Assembly: GCF_001050275.1 (NCBI RefSeq)
Contig: NZ_BBYA01000014.1
Location: forward strand, 1-64,000
Direction of reading: 5' to 3'
Length of the DNA stretch: 64,000 nucleotides
From: Leptolinea tardivitalis
GTDB taxonomy: Bacteria; Chloroflexota; Anaerolineae; Anaerolineales; Anaerolineaceae
The notes beneath the pieces were generated by a model, which worked only from the letters and a program-made list of their open reading frames with translations, was not told where the DNA came from and made no database searches. This document shows positions 7,289 to 32,370 of the stretch, in pieces (position 1 is the first letter of the stretch; every line of letters starts with the position of its first letter). A program made the translations under genes and the position numbers.

Positions 7289-8671
7289 TTATCTCAAAAT
7301 TCTGGCAGCAGCATGGTTATGTCGCTCGATGAGTTTATGTGAATCCACTGTCAAGATTTGGCCTTCTTTTACTATCATTCTTCCGTGAACAAAACTGTAG
7401 TCAACATTTTGCGGTGCGCAAAAGACAAGAGCCGCAACCGGATCATGTAATGCTCCAGCGTAGGCTAGTTTGTCGAGTTTAATCGCGATGAAATCAGCAC
7501 ATTTCCCCGGTTCTAAAGACCCAATATCCGATCGTCCCAGTACGGCGGCGCCACCTCGTGTTGCCAGTTCGAGAGCCTGACGGCCTGTAAAAATAGGGGG
7601 GGCATCATTCCCTGATAATGAGGCACCTTCAATTCCAGCACGCAATCTTGCTAAAAGCAATGCCTGCCTGGCTTCTCCTAACATATGAGAACCATCATTA
7701 CTGGCGGAACCGTCAACTCCCAACCCGAGTTTAACACCGGCAGATATATATTCACGTATAGGTGCAATGCCGCTGGCGAGCCGCATGTTTGAAGAGGGGC
7801 AATGAGCCACGCCGCATCCCTCATGCGCATAGAGTTCAATTTCTTTCTGGCTGACATAGATGGAATGTGCATACCATACATCCTTGCCTATCCAATCGAC
7901 TGATTGCATGTATTCAACTGGACGGTAACCGAACATTTGCTGGCAAAACGCCTCTTCGTCCTGGGTTTCTGCCAGGTGGGTATGCAAATGGATACCATAT
8001 TGACGGGCTAATTGTGCACTTTCTCTCATCAAATCGCTTGTAACGCTGAAAGGAGAACATGGAGACAGAACAATTTGAAGCATGGATCCTGGATTGGGGT
8101 CATGATAGGTTTCTATCAAACGCTGGCTGTCTTTCAAGATATTTTCTTCTGAATCTACAACACTATCCGGAGGCAGCCCACCTTTACTTTCACCAAGACT
8201 CATGGAACCGCGGGAAGCATGAAGACGGATACCAACCTCTTTGCCGGCAGCAATTTCATCATCCAACCTTGACCCATTGGGGAAGAGATAGAGGTGATCA
8301 GAAGCGGTTGTGCATCCTGAAAGTGCCAATTCTGTCATAGCCGTTTCTGCAGAAATAAAAACATCTTCTGGATTCATGCGGGCCCAGATAGGATAAAGGG
8401 TTTTTAACCAGTTAAAAAGGTTGGCATTCTGGGCAGTAGGAACTGCCCGGGTAAGGGTTTGATAAAAATGATGGTGTGTATTGACCAGCCCCGGCAGCAC
8501 AATATATCCAGAAAGATCAAGAACTTCATCGGCGGATGATGGCAATTCGGACGTCGGGCTGACATTTTTCAGAAAGCCATTTTCACAAAATAACCCGCCA
8601 TTTTTAATTTCCCGGCGGGAATCATCCATTGTCACCAGAACATCCGCATTTTTAATCAGTAGAGATGACAT
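7289..8671 (-). CDS. 8-oxoguanine-deaminase-like amidohydrolase
   Basis: A 460-residue amidohydrolase of the TrzN/AtzB/8-oxoguanine deaminase subgroup (SsnA is a relative). Metal ligands are visible: HHH at 66-68 in VNTHHHFYQTLTRAVP, H230 and H232 in HLHTHLAET with E235, H269 in YAHS, and D320 in GVDGSASND. The family converts 8-oxoguanine to uric acid plus ammonia; other amino-purines or s-triazines are possible. It follows folD by 8 bases on the same strand and is probably translated from the same mRNA, with AGGAT upstream of its ATG. The setting suggests purine salvage or catabolism, linked to the cluster beginning near 12.4 kb. Confidence 0.85.
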   Translation of the reverse strand: MSSLLIKNADVLVTMDDSRREIKNGGLFCENGFLKNVSPTSELPSSADEVLDLSGYIVLPGLVNTHHHFYQTLTRAVPTAQNANLFNWLKTLYPIWARMNPEDVFISAETAMTELALSGCTTASDHLYLFPNGSRLDDEIAAGKEVGIRLHASRGSMSLGESKGGLPPDSVVDSEENILKDSQRLIETYHDPNPGSMLQIVLSPCSPFSVTSDLMRESAQLARQYGIHLHTHLAETQDEEAFCQQMFGYRPVEYMQSVDWIGKDVWYAHSIYVSQKEIELYAHEGCGVAHCPSSNMRLASGIAPIREYISAGVKLGLGVDGSASNDGSHMLGEARQALLLARLRAGIEGASLSGNDAPPIFTGRQALELATRGGAAVLGRSDIGSLEPGKCADFIAIKLDKLAYAGALHDPVAALVFCAPQNVDYSFVHGRMIVKEGQILTVDSHKLIERHNHAAARILR

Positions 8672-11106: not shown

Positions 11107-11120
11107 TTTAAGAAAAAAAC

Positions 11121-11289
11121 CCCCGCTATGCCGATGTGCTGCATAGTTTTGCACCTGCATAAGCAGGTAGGATCCCGACCCAGTGAATCCGCCTTGGCCG
11201 AAGCCTATCGCGTCACCACTGAAAGATTAAGATCCGTTTGTAAACTGTTGGCGCAAAACCGCAGTTGCAGCATCACGAACACAGCAGGG
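11121..11289 (+). ncRNA. Candidate structured RNA of about 170 nt, class unknown
   Basis: The stretch is more GC-rich than its AT-rich flanks and folds by eye into nested helices. The ends close through CCC (11121-11123) with GGG (11287-11289) and GCT (11125-11127) with AGC (11283-11285). TGCTGC (11137-11142) pairs with GCAGCA (11267-11272). ACCTGC/GCAGGT (11153-11158, 11163-11168) forms a hairpin with an ATAA loop. GGATC (11170-11174) pairs with GATCC (11231-11235), and CAGTG (11181-11185) with CACTG (11217-11221). The closed long shape is reminiscent of 6S RNA, but no 6S, SRP, tmRNA or riboswitch signature is recognised. No terminator follows directly. Strand is inferred from the neighbours. 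Confidence 0.4.
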
Positions 11290-11330
11290 TAATTTCCTTA
11301 TACCACAATTTAAATTTGATGTATAGTGGG

Positions 11331-12414: not shown

Positions 12415-13179
12415 ATGGCTAATGGTTATTCATATAGCTCACCTCTGTTGATAAGAGCTCCCAGAGTGGAGCTTGAAAATTCGCTTATCCAATTGTTGGG
12501 CACACTTTCTCCCGGTGATCGCTTGCCGCCTGAACCTGATCTGGCCAGGCAATTAGGTGTATCTCGGGCCATGTTGCGTGAAGTGGTAACTGGACTGGTG
12601 GAAAGGGGTTTATTAATTCGCCGGCAGGGAATTGGAACTTTTGTTGCGAGTCAGGCTCCTTTTATTGATTTTGGACTCGAAGTGTTGGAGAGCCTTGACA
12701 GTCTCGCAAAACGTAAGGGGATGGAAACGGAAGTACTTGAATTAGAAATCCGGTCAAGACGAATGACCGCTGACGAAATAGAAATTTTTAATCCTATCGA
12801 AAATTCAGCCAATGTACTTGAGGTATCTCGTGTCATTGCCATCAATGGAAAGGCTGTGGCCTATCTGGTTGATAATGTTCCCGAAATATATCTGGCTCAG
12901 GCTGACGTAAAGTCAAGTATTCATGGATCGGTTTATGACCTGCTGGCACAAAAAAAAGAAATACCTCTTTCATATTCACGAACAGACATACTGGCTATCA
13001 ATGCAGATGCGGAAACCAGCAGAAAACTGAAAATTGGTGAGGGGACGGCACTGATATTACTGACAGCTCAGTTGTATACAACGAATGGACGAATAGTGGA
13101 CTATTCCATTAGTTATTTTGTTCCAGGGCAATTTAAATTCCATGTGATGAGACGGCTTGGCAGACCCACTGAATGGTAG
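12415..13179 (+). CDS. GntR-family transcriptional regulator with UTRA domain
   Basis: The 254-residue regulator has an N-terminal winged helix (about residues 18-80; PEPDLARQLGVSRAMLREVVTGLVERGLLIRRQGIGTFV region, where the recognition helix is LGVSRAMLREV). A UTRA/chorismate-lyase-like ligand domain follows (about 90-245), as in HutC. HutC-type regulators sense small metabolites of the pathway they control, such as urocanate. Being at the head of a purine/ureide gene group, this one may sense a purine or ureido compound. Its promoter carries a palindrome in the spacer, so autoregulation is likely. Confidence 0.88.
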   Translation: MANGYSYSSPLLIRAPRVELENSLIQLLGTLSPGDRLPPEPDLARQLGVSRAMLREVVTGLVERGLLIRRQGIGTFVASQAPFIDFGLEVLESLDSLAKRKGMETEVLELEIRSRRMTADEIEIFNPIENSANVLEVSRVIAINGKAVAYLVDNVPEIYLAQADVKSSIHGSVYDLLAQKKEIPLSYSRTDILAINADAETSRKLKIGEGTALILLTAQLYTTNGRIVDYSISYFVPGQFKFHVMRRLGRPTEW

Positions 13180-13217: not shown

Positions 13218-14168
13218 ATGCGTAGTTTTGCTGGTCGCGACATTCTTTCTTTGAAAGATTTTGAACGAAATGAGTTTTTCCATGTGTTGCAGGTAGCTGA
13301 TGAATTGGAACCCATTGCCCGCTCACGGAAAAATGTCGATATGTTGAAAGAAAAGACGCTGGTAACGGCATTCTACCAACCGAGTACCCGCACTCGCCTT
13401 GCCCATGAAGCAGCCATGCACCGGCTTGGTGGTCATGTTACCGGTTTTTCCGATGCCAAGATGACCCGCGCTGGAGATTGGTATCAGGAATCGATTAAAG
13501 ATACCGTCAAGATGCTTGAATTCTATGGCGATGTGATTGTGATGCGCCACTTCCAACAGGGTGCACCACATGAAGCCGCCAAGTGGGCTTCTGTACCGAT
13601 CATCAATGGTGGTGATGGATGGGGTGAACATCCCACCCAGATCCTGACGGACCTGTATACGGTTCTTACCGAAAAAGGCACTCTGGATGGTCTGACCTGG
13701 CTTTGTGTCGGTGATATGCGCATGCGTACCATGCACTCCATCGCCTATGCCCTTACACAATTTGATGCCAAAGCCATATTTGTGTCGCCTCCCGATATGT
13801 CAATGAAACCAGAATTTAAGGAAGAATTGAAACAATACAACCTTGATTTCTGCGAAGCACCACATGTGGGAGATGTAATTGATCAGGCAGATGTCATCCT
13901 TGTTGAACCGGTTGTGCAACCCGATTATACAAAATCACGCCAGGAAGCCGGAGAACACGGAGAAACACCGGCAAATTACAAGATCACCCGTGACTTGCTT
14001 TTCAACAAAGCCAAAAGTGATTCAATTTTGCTTCACTCTCTCCCGCGCATGGATGAAATTCCTCCCGATGTGGATATCACCAAACATTCCCGTTACTGGC
14101 AGGAAGCCTATAATGGCGTTGTGATGCGTATGGCGTTGTTGGCGCTGGTTCTTGGAAAAATGGAGTAA
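13218..14168 (+). CDS. ATCase-like carbamoyltransferase with altered substrate site
   Basis: A 316-residue transcarbamylase. The carbamoyl-phosphate site is intact: STRTR (56-60), HPTQ (138-141), GDMRMRTMHS (165-174) and LPRMDEI (275-281), all in aspartate carbamoyltransferase form. The second substrate loop differs. Where E. coli PyrB has TRVQ (Arg229, Gln231, which bind aspartate), this protein reads VEPVVQP (229-235). The loop carrying Lys84 of PyrB is also altered, with an insertion around AKMTRAGDWYQES. It probably uses another amine or ureide, possibly in the phosphorolytic direction. GGAGG precedes the start. It sits 38 bp after the regulator gene and is followed by a strong terminator. 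No pyrI or other pyr gene is nearby. Confidence 0.8.
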   Translation: MRSFAGRDILSLKDFERNEFFHVLQVADELEPIARSRKNVDMLKEKTLVTAFYQPSTRTRLAHEAAMHRLGGHVTGFSDAKMTRAGDWYQESIKDTVKMLEFYGDVIVMRHFQQGAPHEAAKWASVPIINGGDGWGEHPTQILTDLYTVLTEKGTLDGLTWLCVGDMRMRTMHSIAYALTQFDAKAIFVSPPDMSMKPEFKEELKQYNLDFCEAPHVGDVIDQADVILVEPVVQPDYTKSRQEAGEHGETPANYKITRDLLFNKAKSDSILLHSLPRMDEIPPDVDITKHSRYWQEAYNGVVMRMALLALVLGKME

Positions 14169-14231: not shown

Positions 14232-16178
14232 ATGAAATCTGCTTTATCTAAAAAGACACTTGATCCGATACTGTTGTTGCTCCTTGCCGTCCTGACGTAT
14301 GGTCTGGTAATCCCAAAATTAGGATTATTTGGAGATGACTGGCCGCACCTATGGGCTTTTCATATGTTTGGAATGGAAGGGCTTAATAACCTTGTAGCCT
14401 GGGACAGGCCATTTTCATCTTGGGTATATGGAATTATCGCCCCTTTGGCTAATGATCATATCTGGGCTTATCACGTTTATCTGCTTATCTTACGCTGGAT
14501 TAGCGCTGTTCTTTTTTATTATCTTATTAAAGAAATCATTCCAGATAGCGATCCATTTCCATTTTGGGCAGCTTCGTTCCTTTTGATTTATCCGGGTTTC
14601 CGGCAACAACCGCAACCTTTGGAATTTATTCTGCATTTTACAATTTTCGATCTTATGCTAGTCTCTTTCATTTGCATGATGAAGGCTGGAAAAGATATTA
14701 AGACGAATTGGCCTTATCAGGTTGCAGGTACTCTGGCATCTTTATCGATATTTTCAGTGGAATATTTCATCGGGCTGGAATTGCTTCGTCCGATTCTATT
14801 GTTTATCAATTTTCAACGGTCTCTCAAGAATTGGAAGACTGCTATTTATAAAACTGCAATTACGTGGTTCCCCTATATTGTTGTACTGGGATGTTACGCA
14901 TACTGGCGCATGTTCATATTTAAATTTCCTACGTATAAACCGACTTTTCTAAATCAGGTGGGACTAAATCCGATCCAAACATTGATAGGTCTCTTGGAAG
15001 TGCTTGTTGAAGAAATCAGAGCTGCCATACTGGGAGCCTGGAGACAGGTTATATCAATTCCATTGGATAACCATCCGGGAATCATTTATTACCTGCTCAT
15101 TTGTGTCAGTTTCATATTTGTTTTCATCTCTTTGACCCGAAAAAAAGTATCAGCAGAGACAACATCACCTCTCATTACTCTGCTTATGGGAAGCGTGGCG
15201 ATCATATTGGCTGGAATACCATTCTGGATTACAGGTATACCTGTACAGTTGGAATTTCCATGGGATCGTTCCACACTGCCTTTCATGGTGGGTTCAAGTT
15301 TGTTATTGGCAGGTTGTTTATTGCTTTTTCGACCGGCTTTCCGCAACGCATTCGCCGCCTTGATCATAGCTGGAAGCGTTGGCATGCATTATCAGAATGT
15401 TATGCTGTATCAGTTGGAATGGCAAAAATTGAACCAGTTCTTCTGGCAATTATCCTGGCGGGCACCTTCCCTTCAACCGGGAACAATAGTGATTTCAGAA
15501 GTCATCCCTTTGTTTTATTATGGAGATAACAACCTTACACCGATTCTTAACTGGACTTATGCACCGCAAAGCAAGTCAACCAAATTGGCATACAACTTTT
15601 TTGATATGGGTGAACGGCTTGGATCAAACCTTTCTGATTTGAAGCCAAATATTTCCGTTTCACATGGTTACCGGTTTTTAACCTTTGAATCGAACAGCAA
15701 CAATTTGCTTCCCGTTGTGTATAAAGATGGGAGCTGTCTGCGTATTGTGGATGAACAAACAGTATTACTTGATTCTTTGCCAAAACGATTAAAGAAAGTT
15801 GCCAGTTTCACCCATCCCGAAGAACGAATACTACCTGGACCGCAATCAACCCCACCTTCATTTATGCCTGAACCTGAACACGGATGGTGCTATATCTACC
15901 AGAAAAGCGAATTGGCCGTTCAACTGGGAAAATGGTCAGAAGTTCGAGCTCTTTATGATGATGCTGAGAAGAATCATATGGAACCCAACGACCTTACGGA
16001 AAACATGCCATTCATTGAGGCTTTTATAAGGATAGGTGACATTGATAGTGCCGCCAAATTGGCCAGGTCAAGCCTGAAACAAGAAAACAGCCGACCGGCT
16101 ATCTGTAATCTCTGGAATAAACTGGCGAAAGAGGATAATGAAGTCGGACGCTTTACTGAACAGGCTGGGTGCGATTAA
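14232..16178 (+). CDS. Large membrane protein, tandem paralogue 1
   Basis: A 648-residue protein with about ten membrane segments in the first 400 residues and a soluble C-terminal part. The loop after the first helix reads LFGDDWPHLW. Acidic pairs at this place are typical of GT-C glycosyltransferases (GT39/GT83-like), so a lipid-linked sugar transferase is possible but not shown. The C-terminal 100 residues (YQKSELAVQLGKWSEVRALYDDAEK and onward) look like TPR-type helical repeats. The next gene is a diverged paralogue with the same plan. There is no Shine-Dalgarno at the ATG, and the upstream T run belongs to a terminator, so expression may depend on read-through. Confidence 0.65.
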   Translation: MKSALSKKTLDPILLLLLAVLTYGLVIPKLGLFGDDWPHLWAFHMFGMEGLNNLVAWDRPFSSWVYGIIAPLANDHIWAYHVYLLILRWISAVLFYYLIKEIIPDSDPFPFWAASFLLIYPGFRQQPQPLEFILHFTIFDLMLVSFICMMKAGKDIKTNWPYQVAGTLASLSIFSVEYFIGLELLRPILLFINFQRSLKNWKTAIYKTAITWFPYIVVLGCYAYWRMFIFKFPTYKPTFLNQVGLNPIQTLIGLLEVLVEEIRAAILGAWRQVISIPLDNHPGIIYYLLICVSFIFVFISLTRKKVSAETTSPLITLLMGSVAIILAGIPFWITGIPVQLEFPWDRSTLPFMVGSSLLLAGCLLLFRPAFRNAFAALIIAGSVGMHYQNVMLYQLEWQKLNQFFWQLSWRAPSLQPGTIVISEVIPLFYYGDNNLTPILNWTYAPQSKSTKLAYNFFDMGERLGSNLSDLKPNISVSHGYRFLTFESNSNNLLPVVYKDGSCLRIVDEQTVLLDSLPKRLKKVASFTHPEERILPGPQSTPPSFMPEPEHGWCYIYQKSELAVQLGKWSEVRALYDDAEKNHMEPNDLTENMPFIEAFIRIGDIDSAAKLARSSLKQENSRPAICNLWNKLAKEDNEVGRFTEQAGCD

Positions 16179-16182
16179 TCAT

Positions 16183-18102
16183 ATGGTATCCACGCGCGAT
16201 TCACAACGCTTTTATCAGCATTTTCTAACTATAGGGTTGATATTTATCATAACAATCCTGACTACCGGCGTTTTTATTCATCGATTTGGTTTATATGGTG
16301 ACCAGTGGGTATCTGTTCTACACCCATCAGACGTTGGATCGAATCTCTATCTGGATGAGAGGATTCAGAGTGCAATAATATTTTTCATAGGTAAACAACC
16401 GTTTCTGTATCATTTATTAAACATGTTATTGTTGTCATTTTCTGGAATTTTGGCCTACATTCTTCTTTTAAGATTGAATTTTGGGAATTTTTATTCAACT
16501 GCTGGCAGTCTTCTATTTTTAGTTTTTCCGACATTTGGACAACCAGGTGCTGCGTTTGCACTTTCATCGATCCTTTTAGGACTCAGCCTGTCACTACTAT
16601 CGGCTATTTGTTATCTGTTTGCACTTTCTCAAAATAGAATTGTTTCTTGGAATTTATTCATAGCTTTTGTTTTTTCACTCTTGTCTTTATTTATCACTCC
16701 CATAATCACTCTTTTTGAAGGGCTCTTAATAATTGGGATCGCCTTGTATGTTTCATTGGGAGAATATGGAAAAAGAAAAGGTTGGATTCTTGGAACAGGT
16801 TTAGGGCATCTGGTAGTAAGTATTTTGATTGTATTGGGAACCAACCCTGTAGAAACAAACATCAGATCACTATTTCTATCAACAATACGCGAGTGGTTTT
16901 CTGAAGTAATTTCAATCTGGAGAAAGGTTATCAGTTTTCCATCTGGAGGCGGGCAGGTTGCAGTTTACCTTGCAATACTTTTGATTGCTGCATGTTTTTT
17001 GACATATTTGCTGTCCAAATTACATAATGGAATACAACAGGCTGATTGGAAGACAGGTAAGAATGATATTTGTATTTTTGCGGGACTGGTCATTTTCACG
17101 ATATGCTTTATTTTTGAACAAAAAATAGCACACATCACAGTGACAGCAAATTACCCTGATGATCTGGGAATTCTGGTAAGTGGATTTCTATTATCAATTC
17201 TTACCATTCTGGGAATAAAAATACTCTTTCTGGAAAAATATCAGGCAATACTATTTTCTTTGCTGATAGTCTTATCGGCTGGAGCAAGGTTTCAGATTTC
17301 CCAACGATTTGCTAATGAGTCTGCGAAAGTAGATAGCTTTCTTTCCCAATTACAGGTCAGAGGGAATGCATTGGAAGAGGGAACCAGTATTGTGGTAGAG
17401 CAATTGCCATTGGATTTTACGTCCATCAGATCAATCAATGCTCTGGTCAAAGAAAAGATGAACGTACCGGAGGGCGATGCTTCAGTGAATATCATATCGG
17501 CGAATGAACCTGGTTTTCAAGAATTTTTGGCAGATTCAGGTAAGAATAGCCGTGTTTTGCGCATAGACAATTTGGATTTGGCAATTGATAAAACAAAAAT
17601 ACTGACTATCTGGCAGCCTGAAAATGGATGTCTTCATTTGATTGAACCTGATACAGATATTGTGAATTTACCAAAGAGTCTGGCATTGACTAAAAAATTC
17701 TCCAATCCTTCTTTGTTGATACCTGACCAGATGTCAGATGTCAAACAACATAACACATTTCGAGCTACAATTAATCCAGCAGGTTGCTATTTCTATCAGA
17801 TGGGAACTCGGTTACTACAAGAAAAGAAATGGGATGACGTTATAGATTTGTATCAACAGGAAAAAGACCAGAACCTTTCCATTCGAAATTTTGAAGAAGT
17901 ACAGCCATTACTCAGAGCATATCTCGAAAAAGGCAAGTATTTTGACGCTGTTCATGTATCTCAGAAATTTAATTTAAATCCAGAGTCGCAACAGGAAATC
18001 TGCAAAACGTGGACAGATACGTTGCAAGAGAAATTAGACAAAGAGGAGGTGGTACAGGAAGTTAGAAAATCAATGGCACAAATCGGATGTAATAATGAGT
18101 GA
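16183..18102 (+). CDS. Large membrane protein, tandem paralogue 2
   Basis: A 639-residue protein with the same architecture as the gene before it: a membrane helix, a LYGDQW loop in place of LFGDDW, a set of hydrophobic helices, a central soluble region with INL and QPENGCLHLIEPDT, and a C-terminal TPR-like end (YFYQMGTRLLQEKKWDDVIDLYQQ region, compare the matching segment of the first copy). The first acidic pair is DQ rather than DD, so the two copies may not be equivalent. The start is ambiguous. ATG at 16183 follows the stop of the previous gene; ATG at 16138 has GAGG three bases upstream and would overlap by 41 bases. Confidence 0.65.
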   Translation: MVSTRDSQRFYQHFLTIGLIFIITILTTGVFIHRFGLYGDQWVSVLHPSDVGSNLYLDERIQSAIIFFIGKQPFLYHLLNMLLLSFSGILAYILLLRLNFGNFYSTAGSLLFLVFPTFGQPGAAFALSSILLGLSLSLLSAICYLFALSQNRIVSWNLFIAFVFSLLSLFITPIITLFEGLLIIGIALYVSLGEYGKRKGWILGTGLGHLVVSILIVLGTNPVETNIRSLFLSTIREWFSEVISIWRKVISFPSGGGQVAVYLAILLIAACFLTYLLSKLHNGIQQADWKTGKNDICIFAGLVIFTICFIFEQKIAHITVTANYPDDLGILVSGFLLSILTILGIKILFLEKYQAILFSLLIVLSAGARFQISQRFANESAKVDSFLSQLQVRGNALEEGTSIVVEQLPLDFTSIRSINALVKEKMNVPEGDASVNIISANEPGFQEFLADSGKNSRVLRIDNLDLAIDKTKILTIWQPENGCLHLIEPDTDIVNLPKSLALTKKFSNPSLLIPDQMSDVKQHNTFRATINPAGCYFYQMGTRLLQEKKWDDVIDLYQQEKDQNLSIRNFEEVQPLLRAYLEKGKYFDAVHVSQKFNLNPESQQEICKTWTDTLQEKLDKEEVVQEVRKSMAQIGCNNE

Positions 18103-18156: not shown

Positions 18157-19137
18157 ATGCAAACATTCTTACATGGACGTGATTTGATTGGTGATCTGGA
18201 TTTTAGCAAAGAAGAAGTTGAAACAGTCATGGATGTGGCGTTTGACCTGAAACGCAAACGCGCTTTGAATGAACCATTTCCGCTTTTGAGAGATAAAGTT
18301 CTGGCTATGCTATTTTTCTTTAGCAGCACTCGGACTCGCGGCTCATTTGAAGCAGGAATCTCTCATCTTGGAGGTCATGCGGCTTTCATCGAATCGAAAT
18401 CCACGCAAATTGCGCACGGTGATACCCCCAAGGAAATTGGAGAGATTTTCGGCCGATATTATGATGGCATTGCCATCCGCCATGTTGACTGGGGTGTAGG
18501 AAATAAATACATAAATGATGTTGCCAAATATTCGCGAGTTCCTGTTCTCAATATGCAGGATGAAATCTACCATCCTTTCCAGTGTCTTGCAGATTTGATG
18601 ACCATTCTTGAAAAGAAGGGACGTGATCTTCGGAAGAAGAAGATGGTAGTCTCCTGGGCATACGCGGCATCATACCAGAAACCTATGTCAGTCCCTCAGA
18701 GTCTGATCTTGCAAATGCCCCGTTTTGGCCTGGATGTAACCCTGGCATATCCTCCTGAGTTTAAATTGATGCCAGATATTATGGCGCAGGCTGAAGAACA
18801 GGCTAAACGCTTCAATACCAAATTTGAAGTAGTTGATGATATGGAGAAAGCATTCAAGGATGCCGATATCGTCTATGCCAAATCATGGGGAGCTATGCTC
18901 ACAACAACCGATACGGAAGAAGGCGCCAAAATCATCAAGAAATATGAATCATGGATCACGGATGAACGCAAGATGAAATTGGCGAAACCTGATGCTATTT
19001 ATATGCATCCTCTTCCGGCTGACCGCAATATCGAAGTAACCGATGCTGTAATTGATGGACCGAATTCTGTGGTCTATGATGAGGCCGAAAACCGAATGCA
19101 TGCTCAGGAAGCCGTAATGGCTTTAACCATGGGATAA
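18157..19137 (+). CDS. YgeW-like (knotted) carbamoyltransferase
   Basis: A 326-residue transcarbamylase of the ornithine/acetylornithine/YgeW branch. The carbamoyl-phosphate motifs are STRTR (57-61), HPFQ (139-142) and HPLPADR (284-290). The proline-rich SYQKPMSVPQ (172-181) and FKDADIVYAKSWG (233-245) match E. coli YgeW (SYGKPLSVPQ; FKDADIVYPKSW, from memory) and not the DxxxSMG loop of ornithine transcarbamylase, so ornithine is unlikely. YgeW belongs to an anaerobic purine/uric-acid cluster. The start at 18157 has AGGATC upstream; a longer frame from 18112 is rejected. Carbamate kinase follows after 22 bp, so the expected role is to make carbamoyl phosphate from a ureido compound. Confidence 0.85.
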   Translation: MQTFLHGRDLIGDLDFSKEEVETVMDVAFDLKRKRALNEPFPLLRDKVLAMLFFFSSTRTRGSFEAGISHLGGHAAFIESKSTQIAHGDTPKEIGEIFGRYYDGIAIRHVDWGVGNKYINDVAKYSRVPVLNMQDEIYHPFQCLADLMTILEKKGRDLRKKKMVVSWAYAASYQKPMSVPQSLILQMPRFGLDVTLAYPPEFKLMPDIMAQAEEQAKRFNTKFEVVDDMEKAFKDADIVYAKSWGAMLTTTDTEEGAKIIKKYESWITDERKMKLAKPDAIYMHPLPADRNIEVTDAVIDGPNSVVYDEAENRMHAQEAVMALTMG

Positions 19138-19159: not shown

Positions 19160-20107
19160 ATGGAAAAAAAAGGTGTTGCTGTTGTCGCTGTTGGTGGTAA
19201 TTCATTAATCAAAGATGAAGACCACAAGACAATTCCAGACCAGTATCATGCTGGAAAGGAATCGATGAAGCACATCGTAGATATGATCGAACAGGGTTGG
19301 GAAGTCGTAGTGACTCATGGCAATGGACCGCAAGTTGGATTCATTCTTCGCCGCTCAGAACTATCACGCCATGAATTGCACGATGTTTCATTGGATTTCT
19401 GTGGCGCAGATTCGCAGGGTTCCATCGGTTATATGTTCGCAATGGCTTTGCATAATGAATTTCTTGCCCGTGGTATGAAAAAACAGGCTGCGGCTATCGT
19501 AACACAGACAATTGTCGACCGAAACGATAAAGCCTTCCAGAATCCCACCAAACCTATTGGCAGTTTTATGGATGAAAAAACCGCCAAAGAACGTCGGGAC
19601 AAAGAAGGCTGGGTTGTGGTGGAAGATGCCGGGCGGGGTTGGAGACGTGTAGTCGCATCTCCAATACCCCAGAAGATTGTTGAAGCAGAAGCCATTAATT
19701 CACTGATCAAAGCTGGTTTTACCGTTGTCGGTGTTGGTGGAGGCGGGATTCCGGTGATTGAAGATGAAAACGGTAATCTCGTTGGAGTAGAGGCTGTTAT
19801 TGACAAAGATTTCGGCTCTGCACTTCTGGCAAATCTTATCAATGCTGATCTTTTTGTTATCAGCACTGCGGTAGAAAAAGTGGCTATCAACTTTAATAAA
19901 CCAGACCAGAAGTGGATTGATAAGATGACAGCAGCTGAAGCCCGAAAGTATATGGAAGAAGGGCATTTTGCCAAAGGCAGTATGCTTCCAAAAATTCAGG
20001 CAATCTTGAAATTCCTGGATGCCGGCGGGAAAAAAGCCTTGATTACAAATCCAGAGAATATTGGCCGCGCATTGAAAGGCGAGACCGGTACCTGGATAGT
20101 TCCGTAG
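19160..20107 (+). CDS. arcC: Carbamate kinase
   Basis: A 315-residue amino-acid-kinase-fold enzyme that transfers phosphate from carbamoyl phosphate to ADP, giving ATP plus carbamate. Signatures include VAVGGNSLI (8-16), THGNGPQVGFI (53-63), GVGGGGIPV (about 190-198), DKDFGSALLA (214-223) and GSMLPKIQA (about 274-282). Length matches ArcC/YqeA. It is directly downstream of the YgeW-like transcarbamylase and ends at a strong terminator, so the pair forms an ATP-yielding step. The usual partner of the arginine deiminase pathway (arcA) is absent here. Confidence 0.95.
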   Translation: MEKKGVAVVAVGGNSLIKDEDHKTIPDQYHAGKESMKHIVDMIEQGWEVVVTHGNGPQVGFILRRSELSRHELHDVSLDFCGADSQGSIGYMFAMALHNEFLARGMKKQAAAIVTQTIVDRNDKAFQNPTKPIGSFMDEKTAKERRDKEGWVVVEDAGRGWRRVVASPIPQKIVEAEAINSLIKAGFTVVGVGGGGIPVIEDENGNLVGVEAVIDKDFGSALLANLINADLFVISTAVEKVAINFNKPDQKWIDKMTAAEARKYMEEGHFAKGSMLPKIQAILKFLDAGGKKALITNPENIGRALKGETGTWIVP

Positions 20108-21043: not shown

Positions 21044-22882
21044 ATGACTGTTGCTAAATCTGGAACTTACTATCATCAAAGAAAAGCATTGCACGATGTA
21101 ACACGCGACATGGCTGCTGTTGCCATGGGTTTTCTTCCCGCTGATCTGATTATCAAAAATGGAAAATTAATAAATGTCAATACGTCCCAGATTCAACCGG
21201 GGATTGATATTGCCATTAAACACGGATTTATTGCACTGGTTGGCAATGCCGATCACGTGCTTGCGGATGAAAACACGAAGATTGTCGATGCCAATGGACG
21301 TTATCTGGCTCCCGGGTTTATTGACAGTCATATGCATATCGAAAGCACCATGGTTGATATCCGTAGTTTTGCTGCGGGAATATTGCCCCATGGAACTACT
21401 ACCATTTGTCCAGACAACCATGAAATAACAAATGTATTCGGTTTGAAAGCTGTTGAATTATTTCACAAAGCGGCAGAAGGATTACCGCTAAAGGTTTTCC
21501 TGGCTATGCCTGTTTGTGTTCCGTCAATTCCGGGTTTTGAAGATGCCGGTGCAACAATCACAGCCGAAGAAGTGGCTAAAGCATATGAAGAGGGTTGGGC
21601 TCAATTGCAGGGAGAACAGATGAATTTCCCTGGTGTTATTTATGGTGATCCCAATACTCATGCCATTACAGCCGCCTCTTTGAAGGCGGGTATTATTTTA
21701 ACAGGGCATTATGCATCTCTGGAATTGAATAAGGGTTTAAATGCATTCATTGCATCTGGTATGAATGCCTGCCACGAGTCGACGACGGCAGAAGCAACAT
21801 TAAAACGAGCTCAATTAGGTATGTATCCTCAGCAGCGTTATGGTACAGCCTGGTTGGATATGCCAAATACCATCAAAGCCATTACTGAGAATCCGGGAAT
21901 TGATACCCGATTCTTCTCGATGGTAACCGATGATGTGACACCAGCGACAGTAGCCTACGAAGGCCATCTTGTGCGGGTTGTACGCGAGGCTATTCGTCAG
22001 GGAGTGAATCCCATTACGGCTATTCAAATGGTCACTATTAATACAGCTCAACTTTTGGAAAAAGCCCGTTATATTGGAACGATATCTCCCGGACGGGCTG
22101 CCGACATTCTTATTTTGAGTGATCTGGTAAATGTAACCATTGATGAAGTCTATGCCGATGGTGTGTTGGTTTCAAAAGATGGCAAGATGGTTGTTGAATT
22201 GCCCCGCTATGATTATCCTGAATGGGCTTTGAAGTCTGTTCATCTGAAAAAACTCACCGAAAAAGATTTTGCTATTCCAGCTAGTGGAAAAGAGACTGTT
22301 CGAGTAATGCGTGTTTATCCTGGCATGGTGCACACAACGGAAGAATTTACCGAAATGACACCTGTCAATGGAGGGTTGCAATCTGATCCTTCGAAAGATA
22401 TTGCTAAGATAGCCATTTTTTATCGTCATCAGGAGAAGGAAGGTTTGACGGGAACAAAGGGGCTGGGATTTATGACCGGTGCTACCCTTAAACCCAACAC
22501 TGCCTTTGCCTCCACCGTATCACATGATTGTCACAATCTAATGGTTTTGGGAACTGATGATAAAGCTATGGCTGTGGCAGGAAATGCCCTTATTGAAGCC
22601 GGCGGAGGATTCGCTGTAGTAGTGGACGGTCAAATAGAAGCCATTATGCCGCTGCCTCTAGCAGGGTTGATGTCATTGGAACCGGTGGCTGTGGCTGCCA
22701 AACAGGTTCGGGCGGTTGAGGATGCCATTAAAAAGGCAGGCTGTCCGGCTGATTCAGTAGAAATGACATTGAGCCTTCTGGGTCTGATTGTTTTGGAAGA
22801 GTTACACCTTTCCAACAAAGGATTGGTTGAACTGAAACCCGGTCAACCGCCTAAATTTGTTGATTTGGTCGTCAATAAATAG
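21044..22882 (+). CDS. Adenine-deaminase-like amidohydrolase
   Basis: A 612-residue protein of the AdeC family, which deaminates adenine to hypoxanthine. It has an N-terminal extension before the amidohydrolase core, metal ligands FIDSHMHIEST (H96, H98), GTTTICPDNHEITNV (119-131), the TDDVTP motif and the C-terminal SHDCHNLMVLG typical of the family. Two conserved spots differ from E. coli AdeC as remembered: CDPHE is here PDNHE, and the SDHE/TDHE loop is NACHE (Asp to Cys). Another purine or ureide ring may be the substrate. A strong AAGGAG precedes the ATG. The purine-type transporter gene follows within 100 bp, supporting a purine role. Confidence 0.85.
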   Translation: MTVAKSGTYYHQRKALHDVTRDMAAVAMGFLPADLIIKNGKLINVNTSQIQPGIDIAIKHGFIALVGNADHVLADENTKIVDANGRYLAPGFIDSHMHIESTMVDIRSFAAGILPHGTTTICPDNHEITNVFGLKAVELFHKAAEGLPLKVFLAMPVCVPSIPGFEDAGATITAEEVAKAYEEGWAQLQGEQMNFPGVIYGDPNTHAITAASLKAGIILTGHYASLELNKGLNAFIASGMNACHESTTAEATLKRAQLGMYPQQRYGTAWLDMPNTIKAITENPGIDTRFFSMVTDDVTPATVAYEGHLVRVVREAIRQGVNPITAIQMVTINTAQLLEKARYIGTISPGRAADILILSDLVNVTIDEVYADGVLVSKDGKMVVELPRYDYPEWALKSVHLKKLTEKDFAIPASGKETVRVMRVYPGMVHTTEEFTEMTPVNGGLQSDPSKDIAKIAIFYRHQEKEGLTGTKGLGFMTGATLKPNTAFASTVSHDCHNLMVLGTDDKAMAVAGNALIEAGGGFAVVVDGQIEAIMPLPLAGLMSLEPVAVAAKQVRAVEDAIKKAGCPADSVEMTLSLLGLIVLEELHLSNKGLVELKPGQPPKFVDLVVNK

Positions 22883-22982
22883 GGTAATAGAACCGGAATA
22901 TTTTTGTCAGGAGGTGATGCAATTCTTATCATGTAATGCTGATTTTCCCAAATTCAATAACAAATTTACAGGAGGAGTAGTT

Positions 22983-24302
22983 ATGAAAAAGAATGTAATC
23001 TGGCGTACCATAGTTGTGTTTATGCTTGCATCCATGCTTGTTTCTGCATGTGCACCGGCTGCTACCCCGGCTCCAACAGCAGAACCTGCCAAACCCGCCG
23101 AACCAACCAAAGCCGCAGAACCTGCTGCTGCCGAACCAACCAAAGCACCCGAACCGACAAAAGCTGAAGCTGCTGCCCCGACTGCTGCTGGTGAATTTAC
23201 GTTCGGTATTGTTATGGTTGGTCCATATAATGATCATGGATGGAGTGAAGCCAGCTATCTGGCCGGCCAGTATGTAGAGAAAATGGTTCCAGGAACCAAA
23301 ATGATCTACATCGATAAAGTCAATTCTGCTGACCGTCCGGGTACAACCGGTGATCAGCTCGCCGAAGAATTAGTCTCAAAAGGTGCGAAATTAATCGTCT
23401 TCAATTCGGATGACTTCAAGGACGCCTCGGTCGAATTCAAAAAGAACAATCCGACCATTCCTGTATTGCACATCTCTGGTGATCTGGCCTGGAAAGATGG
23501 CAAGAACTATAAAGAAATGGAAGGTTATTCCAACCTGATGTCTCAGATGGAATATGGTGAAATGATCGGTGGTTGCGCTGCAGCCCTTACCACCCAGACT
23601 GGAAAGATCGGATATGTTGGTCCATTGATCAATGATGAGACCCGCCGTTTTGCCAACGCCACCTATTTGGGCGCCAAACACTGCTGGGAAACCTATGCCA
23701 AGAAAGATCCAAAAGATCTGAAGATGAAAGTTACCTGGATTGGTTTCTGGTTCAATATTCCTGGTGTTACGGCTGACCCCTCTACTGTATCTGATGATTT
23801 CTTGAACAGTGGTCATGATGTATTGATTTCTGCTCTTGATACCATGGAAGCACTGGTGCAGACAAAGAAAGCCGTCGATGGCGGCAAGAAGGCCTGGGCT
23901 GTGGCGTATGATTACAAGGATGCCTGCAATGAAGCTCCGGATGTATGCCTGGGTGTCAGATACTTCAACTGGGGGCCCGGTTATGTAAAGGCTGTCAAAG
24001 CTGTAATGGATGGTTCTTTCAAATCATACTGGGAATGGGCAGCTCCGGATTGGAAAGATATCAACAATCCCGATACTTCTGCCATGGGCTTCAACAAAGG
24101 CAAAGGTTTGTCTGAAGAAAATGCCAAGAATTTGGATGCTTTCATTGGTGAACTTGCTGGTGGTTTGAACCTGTGGACGGGTCCGATCAAATGGCAGGAT
24201 GGTACAGATTTCTTGAAAGATGGCGAGAAAGCCACTGATCAGCAGATCTGGTATCAACCGCAATTGCTGGAAGGTATTGAAGGCTTGAGCGTTGCTCCGT
24301 AG
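22983..24302 (+). CDS. BMP-family (PnrA-like) nucleoside-binding lipoprotein
   Basis: The 439-residue substrate-binding lipoprotein of an ABC importer. The signal peptide ends in VSAC (lipidated Cys23). A 45-residue Ala/Pro/Glu/Thr/Lys linker follows, then the periplasmic-binding fold starting FTFGIVMVGPYNDHGWSEA. BMP/PnrA proteins bind purine nucleosides in Treponema and others. The ATG at 22983 has an AGGAGGAG Shine-Dalgarno; a longer frame from 22857 lacks a signal peptide and is rejected. A hairpin follows the gene, and the ATPase and two permease genes come next in order. Confidence 0.93.
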   Translation: MKKNVIWRTIVVFMLASMLVSACAPAATPAPTAEPAKPAEPTKAAEPAAAEPTKAPEPTKAEAAAPTAAGEFTFGIVMVGPYNDHGWSEASYLAGQYVEKMVPGTKMIYIDKVNSADRPGTTGDQLAEELVSKGAKLIVFNSDDFKDASVEFKKNNPTIPVLHISGDLAWKDGKNYKEMEGYSNLMSQMEYGEMIGGCAAALTTQTGKIGYVGPLINDETRRFANATYLGAKHCWETYAKKDPKDLKMKVTWIGFWFNIPGVTADPSTVSDDFLNSGHDVLISALDTMEALVQTKKAVDGGKKAWAVAYDYKDACNEAPDVCLGVRYFNWGPGYVKAVKAVMDGSFKSYWEWAAPDWKDINNPDTSAMGFNKGKGLSEENAKNLDAFIGELAGGLNLWTGPIKWQDGTDFLKDGEKATDQQIWYQPQLLEGIEGLSVAP

Positions 24303-24329
24303 TATAAAAACCTTCTGAAATAATCCAAG

Positions 24330-24366
24330 GGGAGGAAGGAGTTAGTCCTTCCTCCCACTTTTCTAA
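24330..24366 (+). terminator. Intra-operon hairpin after the binding-protein gene
   Basis: GGGAGGAAGGA (24330-24340) pairs exactly with TCCTTCCTCCC (24346-24356), followed by ACTTTTCT. Because the remaining transporter genes lie downstream, it probably acts as a partial terminator or as an mRNA 3'-end stabiliser that makes the binding protein more abundant. Confidence 0.75.
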
Positions 24367-24400
24367 AATCCCAAATCTCCAGAAAACAAACTGATCCAAT

Positions 24401-25873
24401 ATGAAAGTAGAACTGCGGAGTATCCATAAGTATTTTGGTCCCGTTCACGCAAATAACAATATTTCATTGACGATACTACCAGGTACGATACAGGGTATAG
24501 TTGGTGAGAATGGTGCCGGAAAAAGTACACTGATGAAAATCCTTTCCGGATTTATTCAGGCCGATGAAGGCGAAATTTTGCTGGATGACCAGGTGATTAC
24601 GATTCACTCTCCTTCGGATGCGCTGAAACGCGGAATCGGAATGCTCCATCAGGACCCGCTTGATTTTCCGCCAATGAAGGTGATTGATAATCTTCTTATA
24701 GGCCAGGAAGGCGGACTTTTTCCAAATAAGCGCAAGGTAGCCGCTGATATTAAGAAACTGGCCAATCAATTCGGTTTTTCTATTGATACAGAAGCCTATG
24801 TCGAAGGATTGACTGTGGGAGAACGCCAGCAATTAGAGATCATCAGGCTTCTCTGGATGGGAGCCAGAATTCTAATTCTGGATGAACCCACAACGGGTAT
24901 ATCAGCTTCTCAAAAAGAAAAATTATTCGAAACACTAACACGATTGGCATCAGAAGGAATGATCGTGATTTTTGTTTCTCATAAGTTGGAAGAAATCGAG
25001 ACACTCTGTCACAGGGCGGCGGTATTCCGAGGAGGTTTGCTGGTCGGAGAAGCCATACAACCGTACCATACAGATGATCTTGTTCGATTAATGTTTGGCA
25101 AGCCCATGGAATTGGGCAGCAGATTGGGCTGCCATAGTGAAGAGAATGTGGTAGAGATACATAACCTCGAAATTGAAGATCCCCGGCTGCATATACGTGA
25201 TGTTGATCTTGATGTAAAAGCTGGTGAAGTGATCGGTTTGGCGGGTATGGAAGGCAGCGGACAACGGTTATTCTTGCGCGCTTTGGGTGGATTATTGGCG
25301 ACGACCGGACGTACAAAACTGCTTGTAAAGGGGCATGACCTTACTCACGAGCCATACTCTTCCTACCTGAAAACTGGAGTAGCCTATGTTCCAGCAGATC
25401 GTATGGAAGAAGGATTAATACCCGGACTTACATTAAAAGAGCACTTCATATTGACAGGCGACACAAAAAAGTTATTTATTGATCAAGAAGAATCTTTACA
25501 TCGTACAAAAGTAAAGATCAGTGAATTCAATATCAAGGGAAGACCAGATAGCTATGTTGAGGAATTATCCGGCGGCAACCAGCAACGCGCCCTTCTGGCT
25601 TTATTGAATGAACCGCTTAGCCTGGTATTGCTGGAACACCCATCACGAGGGTTGGATCTTGAATCAACCATCTGGTTATGGGAAAAGCTGAAAGAAAGAT
25701 GCAAGACCGGAACAGCGGTGATATTCATTTCCTCTGATCTTGAACAAATTCTTCACTACAGTGACCGGATTCTGGTATTTTTTGGTGGAAAAGTATCTAA
25801 ACCGATGCTTGCCGCAGAAACAAACGTCGATCAACTTGGTCAATTGATTGGCGGAAAAGGCTTTGTGAACTAA
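24401..25873 (+). CDS. Nucleoside ABC transporter ATPase, two nucleotide-binding domains (NupA/YufO-like)
   Basis: A 490-residue tandem ATPase of the sugar/nucleoside (CUT2-like) type. The first half has Walker A GENGAGKST, Walker B LILDEPTTG and the switch His in FVSHKLEEI. The signature LTVGERQQLEI replaces LSGGQ, as common in this family. The second half has a changed Walker A (GMEGSGQR), signature LSGGNQQR and LVLLEHPSRGLD. The second site is therefore probably non-hydrolytic. It follows the BMP lipoprotein gene and precedes two permease genes, matching bmpA-nupABC order. Confidence 0.92.
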   Translation: MKVELRSIHKYFGPVHANNNISLTILPGTIQGIVGENGAGKSTLMKILSGFIQADEGEILLDDQVITIHSPSDALKRGIGMLHQDPLDFPPMKVIDNLLIGQEGGLFPNKRKVAADIKKLANQFGFSIDTEAYVEGLTVGERQQLEIIRLLWMGARILILDEPTTGISASQKEKLFETLTRLASEGMIVIFVSHKLEEIETLCHRAAVFRGGLLVGEAIQPYHTDDLVRLMFGKPMELGSRLGCHSEENVVEIHNLEIEDPRLHIRDVDLDVKAGEVIGLAGMEGSGQRLFLRALGGLLATTGRTKLLVKGHDLTHEPYSSYLKTGVAYVPADRMEEGLIPGLTLKEHFILTGDTKKLFIDQEESLHRTKVKISEFNIKGRPDSYVEELSGGNQQRALLALLNEPLSLVLLEHPSRGLDLESTIWLWEKLKERCKTGTAVIFISSDLEQILHYSDRILVFFGGKVSKPMLAAETNVDQLGQLIGGKGFVN

Positions 25874-25885
25874 GGAGATTCTCCA

Positions 25886-26926: not shown

Positions 26927-26935
26927 GTCAGAATT

Positions 26936-31752: not shown

Positions 31753-32370
31753 TTGCTGTCTGTCCCTGATGAAGCGTTAATGCTTGTTGGTATACTTCCG
31801 GATCAGAGAGATCTGGAGATAGCCCGTTTATTGGGATGGTATCGAATTCCATTAAAATCTGCACCAAAGGTAGTGGATGTTGATTATTTAGCTTTTTATC
31901 AAACCGGTGCTTTTGGTGCAGATCATCGATGGCAAATAGAATATATCTGCCCGGTTAATGGCCATGAATTGGTCACCCGGGCAGAATTGTTTCACGATGA
32001 GATGGACCATAAACGAGCCAATGAAGAATACTACAAACTGGCATTGGGACCGATTTCGTGTATAGATCATCCAATAAAAGCTGGTAACTGGAAACGAATA
32101 ACTTTTTTATATACAATTGGTGAATTATTTAACAATGCAGATACTGTAAATGATCTGGTGGTTAGATCTGATAAGAGACGTTTACTCTGGCAGAGTTTAA
32201 GGGAAAGAGCCATTTCAGATCAGTCATCATTTGAATCAGAAGAACCTTCCATGATTGATGACATGATTTTGCTTGAAACATTAATGCAATGGATAGATTT
32301 TCCAAAAAACCGGAAGAATAAATTGTACGATACAGATTTGTCTGGAGGACACCATGAAGAAAATAATTAA
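31753..32370 (+). CDS. Conserved protein of unknown function
   Basis: A 205-residue soluble protein. The N-terminal half is rich in conserved-looking motifs (IARLLGWYRIPLKSAPKV, DYLAFYQTGAFG, ELFHDEMDHKRANEEYYKLALG). Similar segments are known to me from other Chloroflexota proteins without an assigned role. No catalytic signature is recognised; the His/Asp-rich ELFHDEMDH could bind metal. The start is TTG at 31753 with GGAG seven bases upstream, and no better start exists. Its 3' end overlaps the dihydropyrimidinase start by 17 bases, so the two are tightly coupled. Confidence 0.6.
   Translation: MLSVPDEALMLVGILPDQRDLEIARLLGWYRIPLKSAPKVVDVDYLAFYQTGAFGADHRWQIEYICPVNGHELVTRAELFHDEMDHKRANEEYYKLALGPISCIDHPIKAGNWKRITFLYTIGELFNNADTVNDLVVRSDKRRLLWQSLRERAISDQSSFESEEPSMIDDMILLETLMQWIDFPKNRKNKLYDTDLSGGHHEENN

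Follow-up and report, generated by a model that had tools for sequence, protein, structure and literature searches.

Paralogues of aspartate carbamoyltransferase (ATCase) that have lost the RxQ motif while keeping the carbamoyl-phosphate motifs have been termed pseudo-ATCases and, in the parts of that study on which we draw, divided into three subgroups (Barba 2013, PMC4016543). Subgroup 1 includes the ureidoglycine carbamoyltransferase (UGTCase) of Rubrobacter (Rxyl_2847), which phosphorolyses allantoate; subgroup 2 (Nocardioides JS614) is encoded beside a ygeW homologue, xdh and hyuA; and subgroup 3, characterized by HSLP and VXP, has a Na+ symporter, an asparaginase and a HyuC-like gene as neighbours. 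The R-x-Q site reads AIA, AIS or SIA in the first subgroup, GX[SC] in the second and VXP in the third, and the passages on subgroups 2 and 3 give no tested function (PMC4016543). The present work concerns an ATCase-like carbamoyltransferase with the working name ATCA, encoded at 13218-14168 (+) in a stretch of 64,000 nucleotides from Leptolinea tardivitalis (Chloroflexota, Anaerolineae; positions 1 to 64,000 of contig NZ_BBYA01000014.1, hereafter the window), together with a second carbamoyltransferase, OTCB, encoded downstream of it (Table 1). Judging from sequence comparisons, we consider it probable that ATCA works as a carbamoyltransferase in the catabolic direction, within the reductive (yanthine) urate pathway, where it would replace YgeY by phosphorolysis, likeliest on 3-amino-2-ureidopropionate.

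The reductive urate route was shown with genes of the E. coli ygeW-to-xdhD region by Li et al. 2025 (PMC12507026, here and below as far as the available parts of that paper go). In E. coli, ygeW, ygeX, ygeY, hyuA, yqeA, ygfK, ssnA, ygfM and xdhD lie in one region. The intermediate 2,3-diureidopropionate (DUPA) carries two ureido groups, one of which is removed in E. coli by YgeW with phosphate and the other by YgeY with water (PMC12990295). The order of removal is disputed and is stated to be open (PMC12990295): in the scheme of Liu et al. 2025, as given in the commentary by Percudani, the 3-ureido group leaves first (PMC12990295), whereas Li et al. 2025 let YgeW act on the 2-ureido group and detected albizziin with this enzyme (PMC12507026). 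For Chloroflexota, the latter authors described SsnA and a putative F420-dependent luciferase-family enzyme in place of YgfK (PMC12507026).

Pocket residues of ATCA

In ATCase, R229 and Q231 bind the beta-carboxylate of aspartate, whereas R167 and K84 help to position the alpha-carboxylate (excerpts of PMC4581275). These positions were compared after MAFFT alignment, in which 101 distinct ATCA sequences were combined with E. coli YgeW and with 9 PyrB, 93 OTCB and 4 ArgI-type sequences. The 101 sequences were taken from 117 matched ATCA open reading frames (ORFs), leaving out duplicates, sequences shorter than 300 aa or with fewer than 300 aligned residues, and those containing X or stops. Residue changes are given from the numbering of mature E. 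coli ATCase to that of ATCA.

The motifs STRTR (56-60), HPTQ (138-141) and LPRMDEI (275-281) are unchanged in ATCA. The carbamoyl-phosphate residues S52, T53, R54, T55, R105, H134 and Q137 are conserved in 101/101 ATCA sequences, and the patterns STRT, R105, HPxQ and HxLP were likewise found in every sequence, with L267 present in 100 of them. The part of the 240s loop that binds the aspartate side chain is different. EPVVQPD of ATCA faces E. coli T228-R234 (TRVQKER) without a gap, both in a phmmer comparison with the P. abyssi ATCase and in the MAFFT alignment, giving the changes T228 to E230, R229 to P231, Q231 to V233, E233 to P235 and R234 to D236. The states T228 to E, R229 to P and R234 to D, as well as S80 to R in the 80s loop, occur in all 101 sequences; Q231 is V in 100 and I in one. 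The RxQxER motif of ATCase (R229, Q231) is thus absent from the whole family, which has PVVQPD at this place. The 80s loop, AKMTRAGDWYQES in ATCA versus SANTSLGKKGET in the E. coli-numbered comparison, is one residue longer in ATCA, with the changes S80 to R84, K83 to D87 and K84 to Y89; the added residue is W88, replaced by F in some relatives. Where ATCase has Ser80 and Lys84, which the neighbouring subunit contributes with its 80s loop, all 101 ATCA sequences have R84 and Y89, and K83 too is replaced in every one of them. P266 is invariantly S274 in ATCA, and R167 is conserved in 101/101 sequences, with a one-residue deletion immediately ahead of it.

Because R167 is kept, only part of the aspartate site has been lost. 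As judged from the alignment, recognition of the carboxylate beside the reacting nitrogen is half retained in ATCA, and the side-chain part of the site is remade. In the latter, acidic residues stand for basic or neutral ones, whereas the change S80 to R84 goes the opposite way. Two invariant arginines, R84 and R241, are specific to the ATCA family, and either of them remains a candidate for an arginine that fills the R229 position in space. The pocket changes are not due to chance: 101 distinct relatives, the most divergent of them about 70% identical, show these states without exception or almost so. The first-pass annotation, made from the window alone, had described intact carbamoyl-phosphate motifs, a replaced Arg229/Gln231 stretch and a rebuilt Lys84 loop, all of which agree with the alignment. 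Its statement that the aspartate-binding residues are lost holds for R229, Q231, S80 and K84, but has to be narrowed for R167.

The NCBIfam ATCase equivalog TIGR00670 accepts ATCA (258 bits, cut-off 237), so automatic annotation would label it pyrB. An AlphaFold (AF2) model has the ATCase fold (predicted local distance difference test score, pLDDT, 88.1) and is closest to ATCases bound to N-(phosphonacetyl)-L-aspartate (PALA): 6yw9 (Z 39.2, root mean square deviation 2.1 A over 306 residues) and 1ml4 (Z 38.8, 2.4 A over 304). With the model of YgeW and knotted carbamoyltransferases (TIGR03316) ATCA scored 27 bits (cut-off 500), and it has EPV at the position of the KSW motif. ATCA therefore has the fold, the carbamoyl-phosphate site and R167 in common with ATCase (PyrB), whereas RxQxER, S80 and K84 have all been lost.

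Five carbamoyltransferases were found in the Leptolinea genome with Pfam PF02729. Besides ATCA and OTCB there are three that pass NCBIfam cut-offs, as pyrB (380 bits), ornithine carbamoyltransferase (OTCase; 400 bits) and putrescine carbamoyltransferase (530 bits). The authentic pyrB, the absence of which, together with normal ATCase activity of the enzyme, had been named beforehand as grounds for giving up the idea of a changed substrate, is at C9:403035; its RVQKER is intact, it is the gene scoring 380 bits with TIGR00670, and it has a dihydroorotase-like gene on one side (272 bits against a cut-off of 279) and pyrF on the other (248 bits, cut-off 111).

With STRT and HPTQ kept, R230-x-Q232 lost and an authentic PyrB encoded elsewhere in the genome, ATCA fits the general definition of pseudo-ATCases, and the residue loss on which the first-pass annotation built is a known mark of that group and not new (Barba 2013, passages in PMC4016543), although the direction of its interpretation was right. 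ATCA shares the ygeW-homologue neighbour with subgroup 2 (78/80 loci, see below) but has PVV and not GX[SC]; it shares HSLP with subgroup 3, but its R-x-Q site is PVV in the ungapped alignment and becomes VQP only if the alignment is shifted. Combining the HSLP of subgroup 3 and the context of subgroup 2 with PVV, ATCA is called here a further pseudo-ATCase branch, pending a tree that includes the sequences of subgroups 1-3.

Occurrence of ATCA, its operon and YgeY

Two genome samples were searched, 150 genomes of the class (Anaerolineae) at least 90% complete and 400 genomes of the phylum at least 85% complete. ATCA was found in 37/150 class genomes at 70-100% identity (two of the 37 sequences are partial), and that of Leptolinea sp. 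HRD-7, from the same genus, is 97% identical. Among the class matches listed, the next ones were PyrB-like with at most 44% identity and none fell between 44% and 70%; at least 28 of the 37 ATCA genomes had a second, PyrB-range match among them. In the phylum sample ATCA was present in 32/400 genomes, 13 of them outside the class and 12 of these 13 in one family; two further rows of this search were PyrB-like. Identity over the phylum was 69-100%. In a 36-sequence tree ATCA formed a single clade (100/100) within the ATCase side.

Conservation of the operon was assessed in 80 related loci on named contigs (tblastn E <= 1e-15; contig ends depress the counts). Some ORFs in the locus maps are antisense shadows, and a tblastn recount was made for the 80 loci. 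OTCB follows ATCA on the same strand in 78/80 loci with a gap of 7-3995 bp, and in the other two the stretch ends 6 and 103 bp past ATCA. Matches to GntR were obtained in 75 loci and to carbamate kinase in 70. An 8-oxoguanine deaminase-like gene was matched in 60 loci, an adenine deaminase-like gene was seen in 54, and 23 loci had operon-type YgeY. The 8-oxoguanine deaminase-like gene is a better match than SsnA in 60/80 loci, and the adenine deaminase-like gene has a median identity of 42% over its 54 loci. OTCB is present in 36/37 ATCA genomes; it groups with E. coli YgeW at 100/97 in the tree and carries the YgeW KSW motif. The earlier remark that the gene lies beside a GntR regulator and outside a pyr operon is correct, the operon being of a purine type instead.

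Operon-type YgeY was defined as a YgeY no more than 15 kb away from OTCB or ATCA, or one scoring at least 430 bits, in a scored list that reaches down to 302 bits. OTCB occurs in 93/150 class genomes, 57 without and 36 with ATCA. Operon-type YgeY is present in 56 of the 57 OTCB genomes that are without ATCA (46 linked, 10 elsewhere) and absent from 25 of the 36 that have both carbamoyltransferases (Fisher p 4e-13 for the pattern). These 25 comprise 14 genomes with other YgeY-like copies only and 11 with none above 300 bits; among the 11, weaker matches were seen in five (E 1e-67 to 1e-77), and the other six had none at E 1e-60. Exactly one of ATCA and YgeY is present in 81/93 genomes, a number reached in none of 20,000 within-family shuffles of YgeY. 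In the eight families with both states, YgeY was found in 23/23 ATCA-less genomes and was missing in 16/21 ATCA genomes.

The two genes also share a place in the operon. The order is GntR-YgeY-OTCB in loci without ATCA (L146-L149, L155), GntR-ATCA-OTCB in those without YgeY and GntR-YgeY-ATCA-OTCB in 20 of the 23 loci that have both. In a 42-sequence YgeY tree (built from E. coli YgeY and the sequences obtained for 41 of 42 chosen loci, L047 giving none; one of two unlinked G087 copies was used), the 20 linked YgeYs formed one clade (98/96), with E. coli YgeY next to it (86/81). Thirteen of the 15 unlinked YgeY-like copies of ATCA genomes belonged to a separate clade (98/97) that also took in second copies from ATCA-less genomes, and the Leptolinea and G192 copies formed long branches outside both clades. 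Long-branch warnings were given in the 36- and 42-sequence trees for E. coli YgeY, YgeW, a Staphylococcus row (see below) and the Leptolinea and G192 YgeY-like copies. Taken together, the complementary occurrence and the shared operon slot are most simply read as ATCA and YgeY doing the same step. In family f50 ATCA and operon-type YgeY were found together in 4/4 sampled OTCB genomes (G173:C133, G143:C58, G160:C102, G095), so that this family offers a natural control for the division of labour between the two.

The genes expected for the urate pathway are present in the Leptolinea genome: SsnA, a HyuA-like hydantoinase, the carbamoyltransferase OTCB and carbamate kinase. SsnA lies on the contig of ATCA, from 118.9 kb (462 bits, cut-off 455.5), and is followed by NADPH-F420 reductase (NpdG), CofE and CofD, each over its cut-off, by a luciferase-type gene (nearest to F420-dependent Mer, 149 bits, cut-off 276) and by Xdh-like genes (722 bits to XdhA, cut-off 780). 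From its predicted products this run is identified as the Chloroflexota variant of the upper urate pathway described in the available parts of Li 2025 (PMC12507026). The run (C14:118867-135000) also holds two sets of molybdo-hydroxylase-like genes. In the class sample SsnA was found in 124/150 genomes (E <= 1e-90; 122 over cut-off), and it is associated with OTCB (88/93 vs 36/57, p 2e-6). Of the 88 genomes that have both, 13 have SsnA no more than 25 kb from OTCB, six of these with and seven without ATCA.

Some genomes bring these genes together. Naming genes by best blastp match, the order is SsnA-PALP2-GT-PALP1-CK-OTCB-ATCA-AdeD-HyuA-8oxoGD in L137 and, with unnamed genes interspersed, GntR-ATCA-OTCB-CK-PALP1-PALP2-SsnA-YgfK-like in L186 (CK, carbamate kinase). 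Outside the class, L173 and L179 have ATCA-OTCB with SsnA-, YgfK- and Xdh-like genes; L173 also has CK after OTCB, and L179 a HyuA-like gene. YgfK-like genes (38-45% identity to E. coli YgfK) were seen in the ATCA-OTCB clusters L173, L176 and L179 (outside the class) and L186 and L187 (Anaerolineae), whereas Li 2025 describe YgfK as lacking in Chloroflexota (PMC12507026).

Proposed role and its alternatives

What the comparisons show is that the pocket is rebuilt and invariant, that ATCA belongs to the operon described above, that some genomes link it to SsnA-, HyuA-, Xdh- and YgfK-like genes, and that ATCA and YgeY are complementary. We regard a role of ATCA in the reductive urate pathway as very probable. 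In the sequence of steps that we favour, HyuA would open ureidomethylhydantoin to DUPA; OTCB with phosphate would convert the 3-ureido group of DUPA to carbamoyl phosphate, leaving 3-amino-2-ureidopropionate; ATCA with phosphate would convert the 2-ureido group of that compound to a second carbamoyl phosphate, leaving 2,3-diaminopropionate; carbamate kinase would turn both carbamoyl phosphates into ATP; and a pyridoxal 5'-phosphate (PLP) enzyme of the cluster would cleave diaminopropionate. The direction of the reaction, the 2-ureido specificity, the order of the steps and the choice of PLP enzyme are what we infer. The 2-ureido specificity is proposed because the retained R167 helps to bind the carboxylate beside the reacting nitrogen, and because the acidic E230, D87 and D236, standing for basic or neutral residues, could meet the 3-ammonium group. 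To this exact substrate we give an even chance, and within that assignment the alpha-carboxylate site speaks for removal of the 3-ureido group first, as in Liu et al., and against the order of Li et al., in which the 2-ureido group leaves first. Equally balanced, in our estimate, is the wider proposal that Chloroflexota possess a fully energy-conserving branch in which two distant carbamoyltransferase lineages, a YgeW-type enzyme and a repurposed ATCase that is a non-homologous replacement of YgeY, would each remove one of the ureido groups of DUPA with phosphate and together yield two carbamoyl phosphates and two ATP.

Compared with known enzymes, ATCA would perform the step of YgeY from the same operon slot, but YgeY is an M20/ArgE-DapE-type hydrolase of another family, whereas ATCA would save the carbamoyl group for ATP. 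Like YgeW (YTCase), ATCA is proposed to be a carbamoyltransferase acting on a diaminopropionate ureide with carbamate kinase in the cluster; YgeW, however, is on the OTCase/AOTCase side and has the KSW motif, and its counterpart in Leptolinea is OTCB. A replacement of YgeW by ATCA was considered and rejected, as the YgeW-clade enzyme is OTCB, which is found together with ATCA in 36/37 genomes. DPTCase of zwittermicin and viomycin formation has diaminopropionate as second substrate, as proposed for ATCA (Shi 2015, excerpts of PMC4581275), but it has the motif HDLP, works in the biosynthetic direction and makes beta-ureidoalanine, whereas ATCA has HSLP and R167. A literature search, which covered listings and abstract openings and did not extend to Liu et al. 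2025, found no ATCase-like enzyme placed in the reductive urate pathway; within this scope the YgeY-replacement role appears to be new, the motif loss itself being already known.

Several observations weigh against the proposed role. SsnA is 100 kb away from ATCA in the Leptolinea genome; 5/37 ATCA genomes have no SsnA at the threshold used (G073, G079, G115, G164, G169), and ATCA alone is not associated with SsnA (32/37 vs 92/113, p 0.62), because SsnA is common in the class. The replacement of YgeY is not strict, since 11/36 ATCA+OTCB genomes retain operon-type YgeY; Leptolinea itself encodes a distant YgeY-like protein on another contig (360 and 387 bits, cut-offs 321.5 and 321); and G070, alone among the 93 OTCB genomes, lacks both ATCA and operon-type YgeY, having a YgeY-like match at 1e-61. 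Another ureidase may act in G070. At the OTCB locus of this genome (G070:C38, L152) SsnA is 5 kb away. The assignment of OTCB is weakened by its score of 177 bits with the NCBI YgeW model (TIGR03316, cut-off 500) and by the tree program flagging YgeW as a long branch, so that its placement is possibly false, and G164 has ATCA without OTCB. No match to the YgeX diaminopropionate ammonia-lyase over cut-off was found in the Leptolinea genome, the best being PALP1 with 37 bits; PALP1 or PALP2, both of which recur with the cluster, could be an unrecognised diaminopropionate lyase. If YgeW takes the 2-ureido group, as in the accessible text of Li 2025 (PMC12507026), ATCA is left with the 3-ureido group, contrary to the argument from R167. 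Finally, carbamoyl transfer favours synthesis (excerpts of PMC4581275), so phosphorolysis would be uphill and would need a pull by carbamate kinase and the lyase.

The main rival to the favoured model keeps the pathway and reverses the order: ATCA would take the 2-ureido group from DUPA to give albizziin, which has a neutral ureidomethyl side chain, and OTCB would then take the 3-ureido group of this short citrulline relative. R167, from its role in ATCase (excerpts of PMC4581275), would suit any N-carbamoyl alpha-amino acid, OTCB is placed on the OTCase/YgeW side of its superfamily, and albizziin was detected with YgeW (PMC12507026, in part). We nevertheless think this order unlikely, since ATCA replaces YgeY, which makes the second cleavage in both published schemes, and not YgeW, and since the three acidic replacements in the side-chain site would suit a cationic group better than a neutral one. 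Action on some purine-salvage ureido compound other than DUPA, or a chiefly structural partnership with OTCB, would accord with the 8-oxoguanine and adenine deaminase-like genes and the BMP-type ABC system of the operon and with the 11 genomes that keep ATCA and YgeY together. Both variants seem improbable to us: catalysis is expected from the invariance of all carbamoyl-phosphate-site residues, and the complementarity with YgeY points to one shared step.

The first-pass annotation had predicted a new second substrate and suggested allantoate, ureidoglycine and diaminopropionate types. The prediction is well supported by the invariant rebuilt pocket, the separate true pyrB and the purine-type operon, and among the suggestions the diaminopropionate type fits best. 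Ureidoglycine or allantoate would be expected if ATCA were a UGTCase like the Rubrobacter pseudo-ATCase, which is also ATCase-like, has lost R229 and Q231, adjoins carbamate kinase and was shown to act on allantoate (sections of PMC4016543); R167 is conserved in both, and both would be catabolic enzymes forming carbamoyl phosphate from a ureide, the reaction of ATCA being a proposal. UGTCase, however, belongs to the oxidative purine route and is listed with S102 and K106 as equivalents of Ser80 and Lys84 (proposed in Table 1 of PMC4581275 and not taken from a structure), whereas ATCA has neither. In the 25 ATCA genomes without operon-type YgeY, allantoinase was over the TIGR03178 cut-off in none (0/25) and a weaker hydantoinase-family match was present in 24, uricase not having been searched for; the linkage of ATCA is to SsnA, HyuA, Xdh and YgfK-like genes. 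Allantoate and ureidoglycine are thus not favoured, and we give the UGTCase interpretation little credence. From the passing of TIGR00670, the ATCase fold and the ATCase-PALA complexes at the top of the structural matches one might suspect that ATCA is a second ATCase or a relaxed duplicate retaining some aspartate activity. This is very improbable, given that RxQxER is lost in 101/101 sequences, that the side-chain and 80s-loop sites have become fixed in another state and that a separate pyrB lies inside a pyr cluster; identity of at least 69% across the phylum is unlike decay. A decayed paralogue was rejected on the same figures (69-100% identity over the phylum).

Neighbouring genes, relatives and implications

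The features of the window are collected in Table 1. The insertion of two membrane proteins between ATCA and OTCB recurs in L006 and L007, and relatives of these proteins were found in 24/80 related loci, in several of them after carbamate kinase. From its sequence matches, the BMP-type ABC system probably takes up purines or nucleosides. The HyuA-like hydantoinase has 42% identity to E. coli HyuA. A 6S RNA lies at 11116-11293 (-) (Rfam RF00013, 58 bits).

Table 1. ATCA and other features in the window
Feature	Position	Strand	Basis
8-oxoguanine deaminase-like amidohydrolase	7289-8671	-	NF006055 679 bits, cut-off 532
GntR/UTRA regulator, directly upstream of ATCA	12415-13179	+	Pfam PF00392 and PF07702; tblastn match in 75/80 related loci
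ATCA, ATCase-like carbamoyltransferase	13218-14168	+	single open frame, 316 aa; TIGR00670 258 bits; ATCase fold
ATCA rebuilt 80s loop, residues 80-94 (AKMTRAGDWYQESIK)	13455-13499	+	alignment; near-invariant across 101 sequences
ATCA rebuilt start of 240s loop, residues 229-237 (VEPVVQPDY), opposite E. coli TRVQKER	13902-13928	+	phmmer and MAFFT alignments
Two membrane proteins of about 650 aa between ATCA and OTCB	14232-18102	+	without Pfam match
OTCB, carbamoyltransferase of YgeW clade	18157-19137	+	Pfam; tree; KSW motif
Carbamate kinase	19160-20107	+	TIGR00746 378 bits, cut-off 358
Adenine deaminase-like amidohydrolase, below family cut-off	21044-22882	+	TIGR01178 398 bits, cut-off 472
BMP-type ABC uptake system: binding protein, ATPase, two permeases	22857-27937	+	PF02608 on binding protein; ORFs, conserved order; other names from sequence
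PLP enzyme PALP1	28005-29252	+	genome's best match to diaminopropionate ammonia-lyase, far below cut-off
PLP enzyme PALP2	30241-31707	+	PF00291; recurs in many clusters
D-hydantoinase, HyuA-like	32354-33772	+	TIGR02033 536 bits, cut-off 393

The nearest relative of the ATCA clade in the 36-sequence tree is an ATCase-like protein of a Staphylococcus epidermidis plasmid (98/96; long branch with program warning). It has 36% identity to ATCA, no RxQ, and ATCA-like changes in the 80s and 160s loops, and it is perhaps part of a small-molecule pathway. The protein, encoded on plasmid p2 (NZ_CP093195.1, L214:295-1218) and annotated as aspartate carbamoyltransferase, overlaps a ThiF-family gene; 13 Staphylococcus plasmid records matched ATCA, and a literature search on the protein gave no match. 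No close relative of ATCA was found in the plasmid collection (60 records at E 1e-30, 77 at 1e-18) or the phage collection (20 records), all matches being below 60% identity, and eight pattern matches in viral contigs included no ATCA relative.

The interpretation given here would provide a concrete function for one branch of the pseudo-ATCases, which annotation pipelines would label pyrB. With its retained Arg167, which suggests a carboxylate beside the reacting nitrogen, ATCA is an enzyme on which the open question of which ureido group leaves first could be tested, using a single purified protein and a small set of substrates. A reversible, ATP-saving replacement of YgeY may also interest designers of urate-degrading strains. 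If the interpretation is true, ATCA removes a urea-like moiety from a product of uric acid degradation with the energy saved, unlike the wasteful YgeY of gut bacteria such as E. coli, and Anaerolineae would gain a second ATP from purine scavenging.

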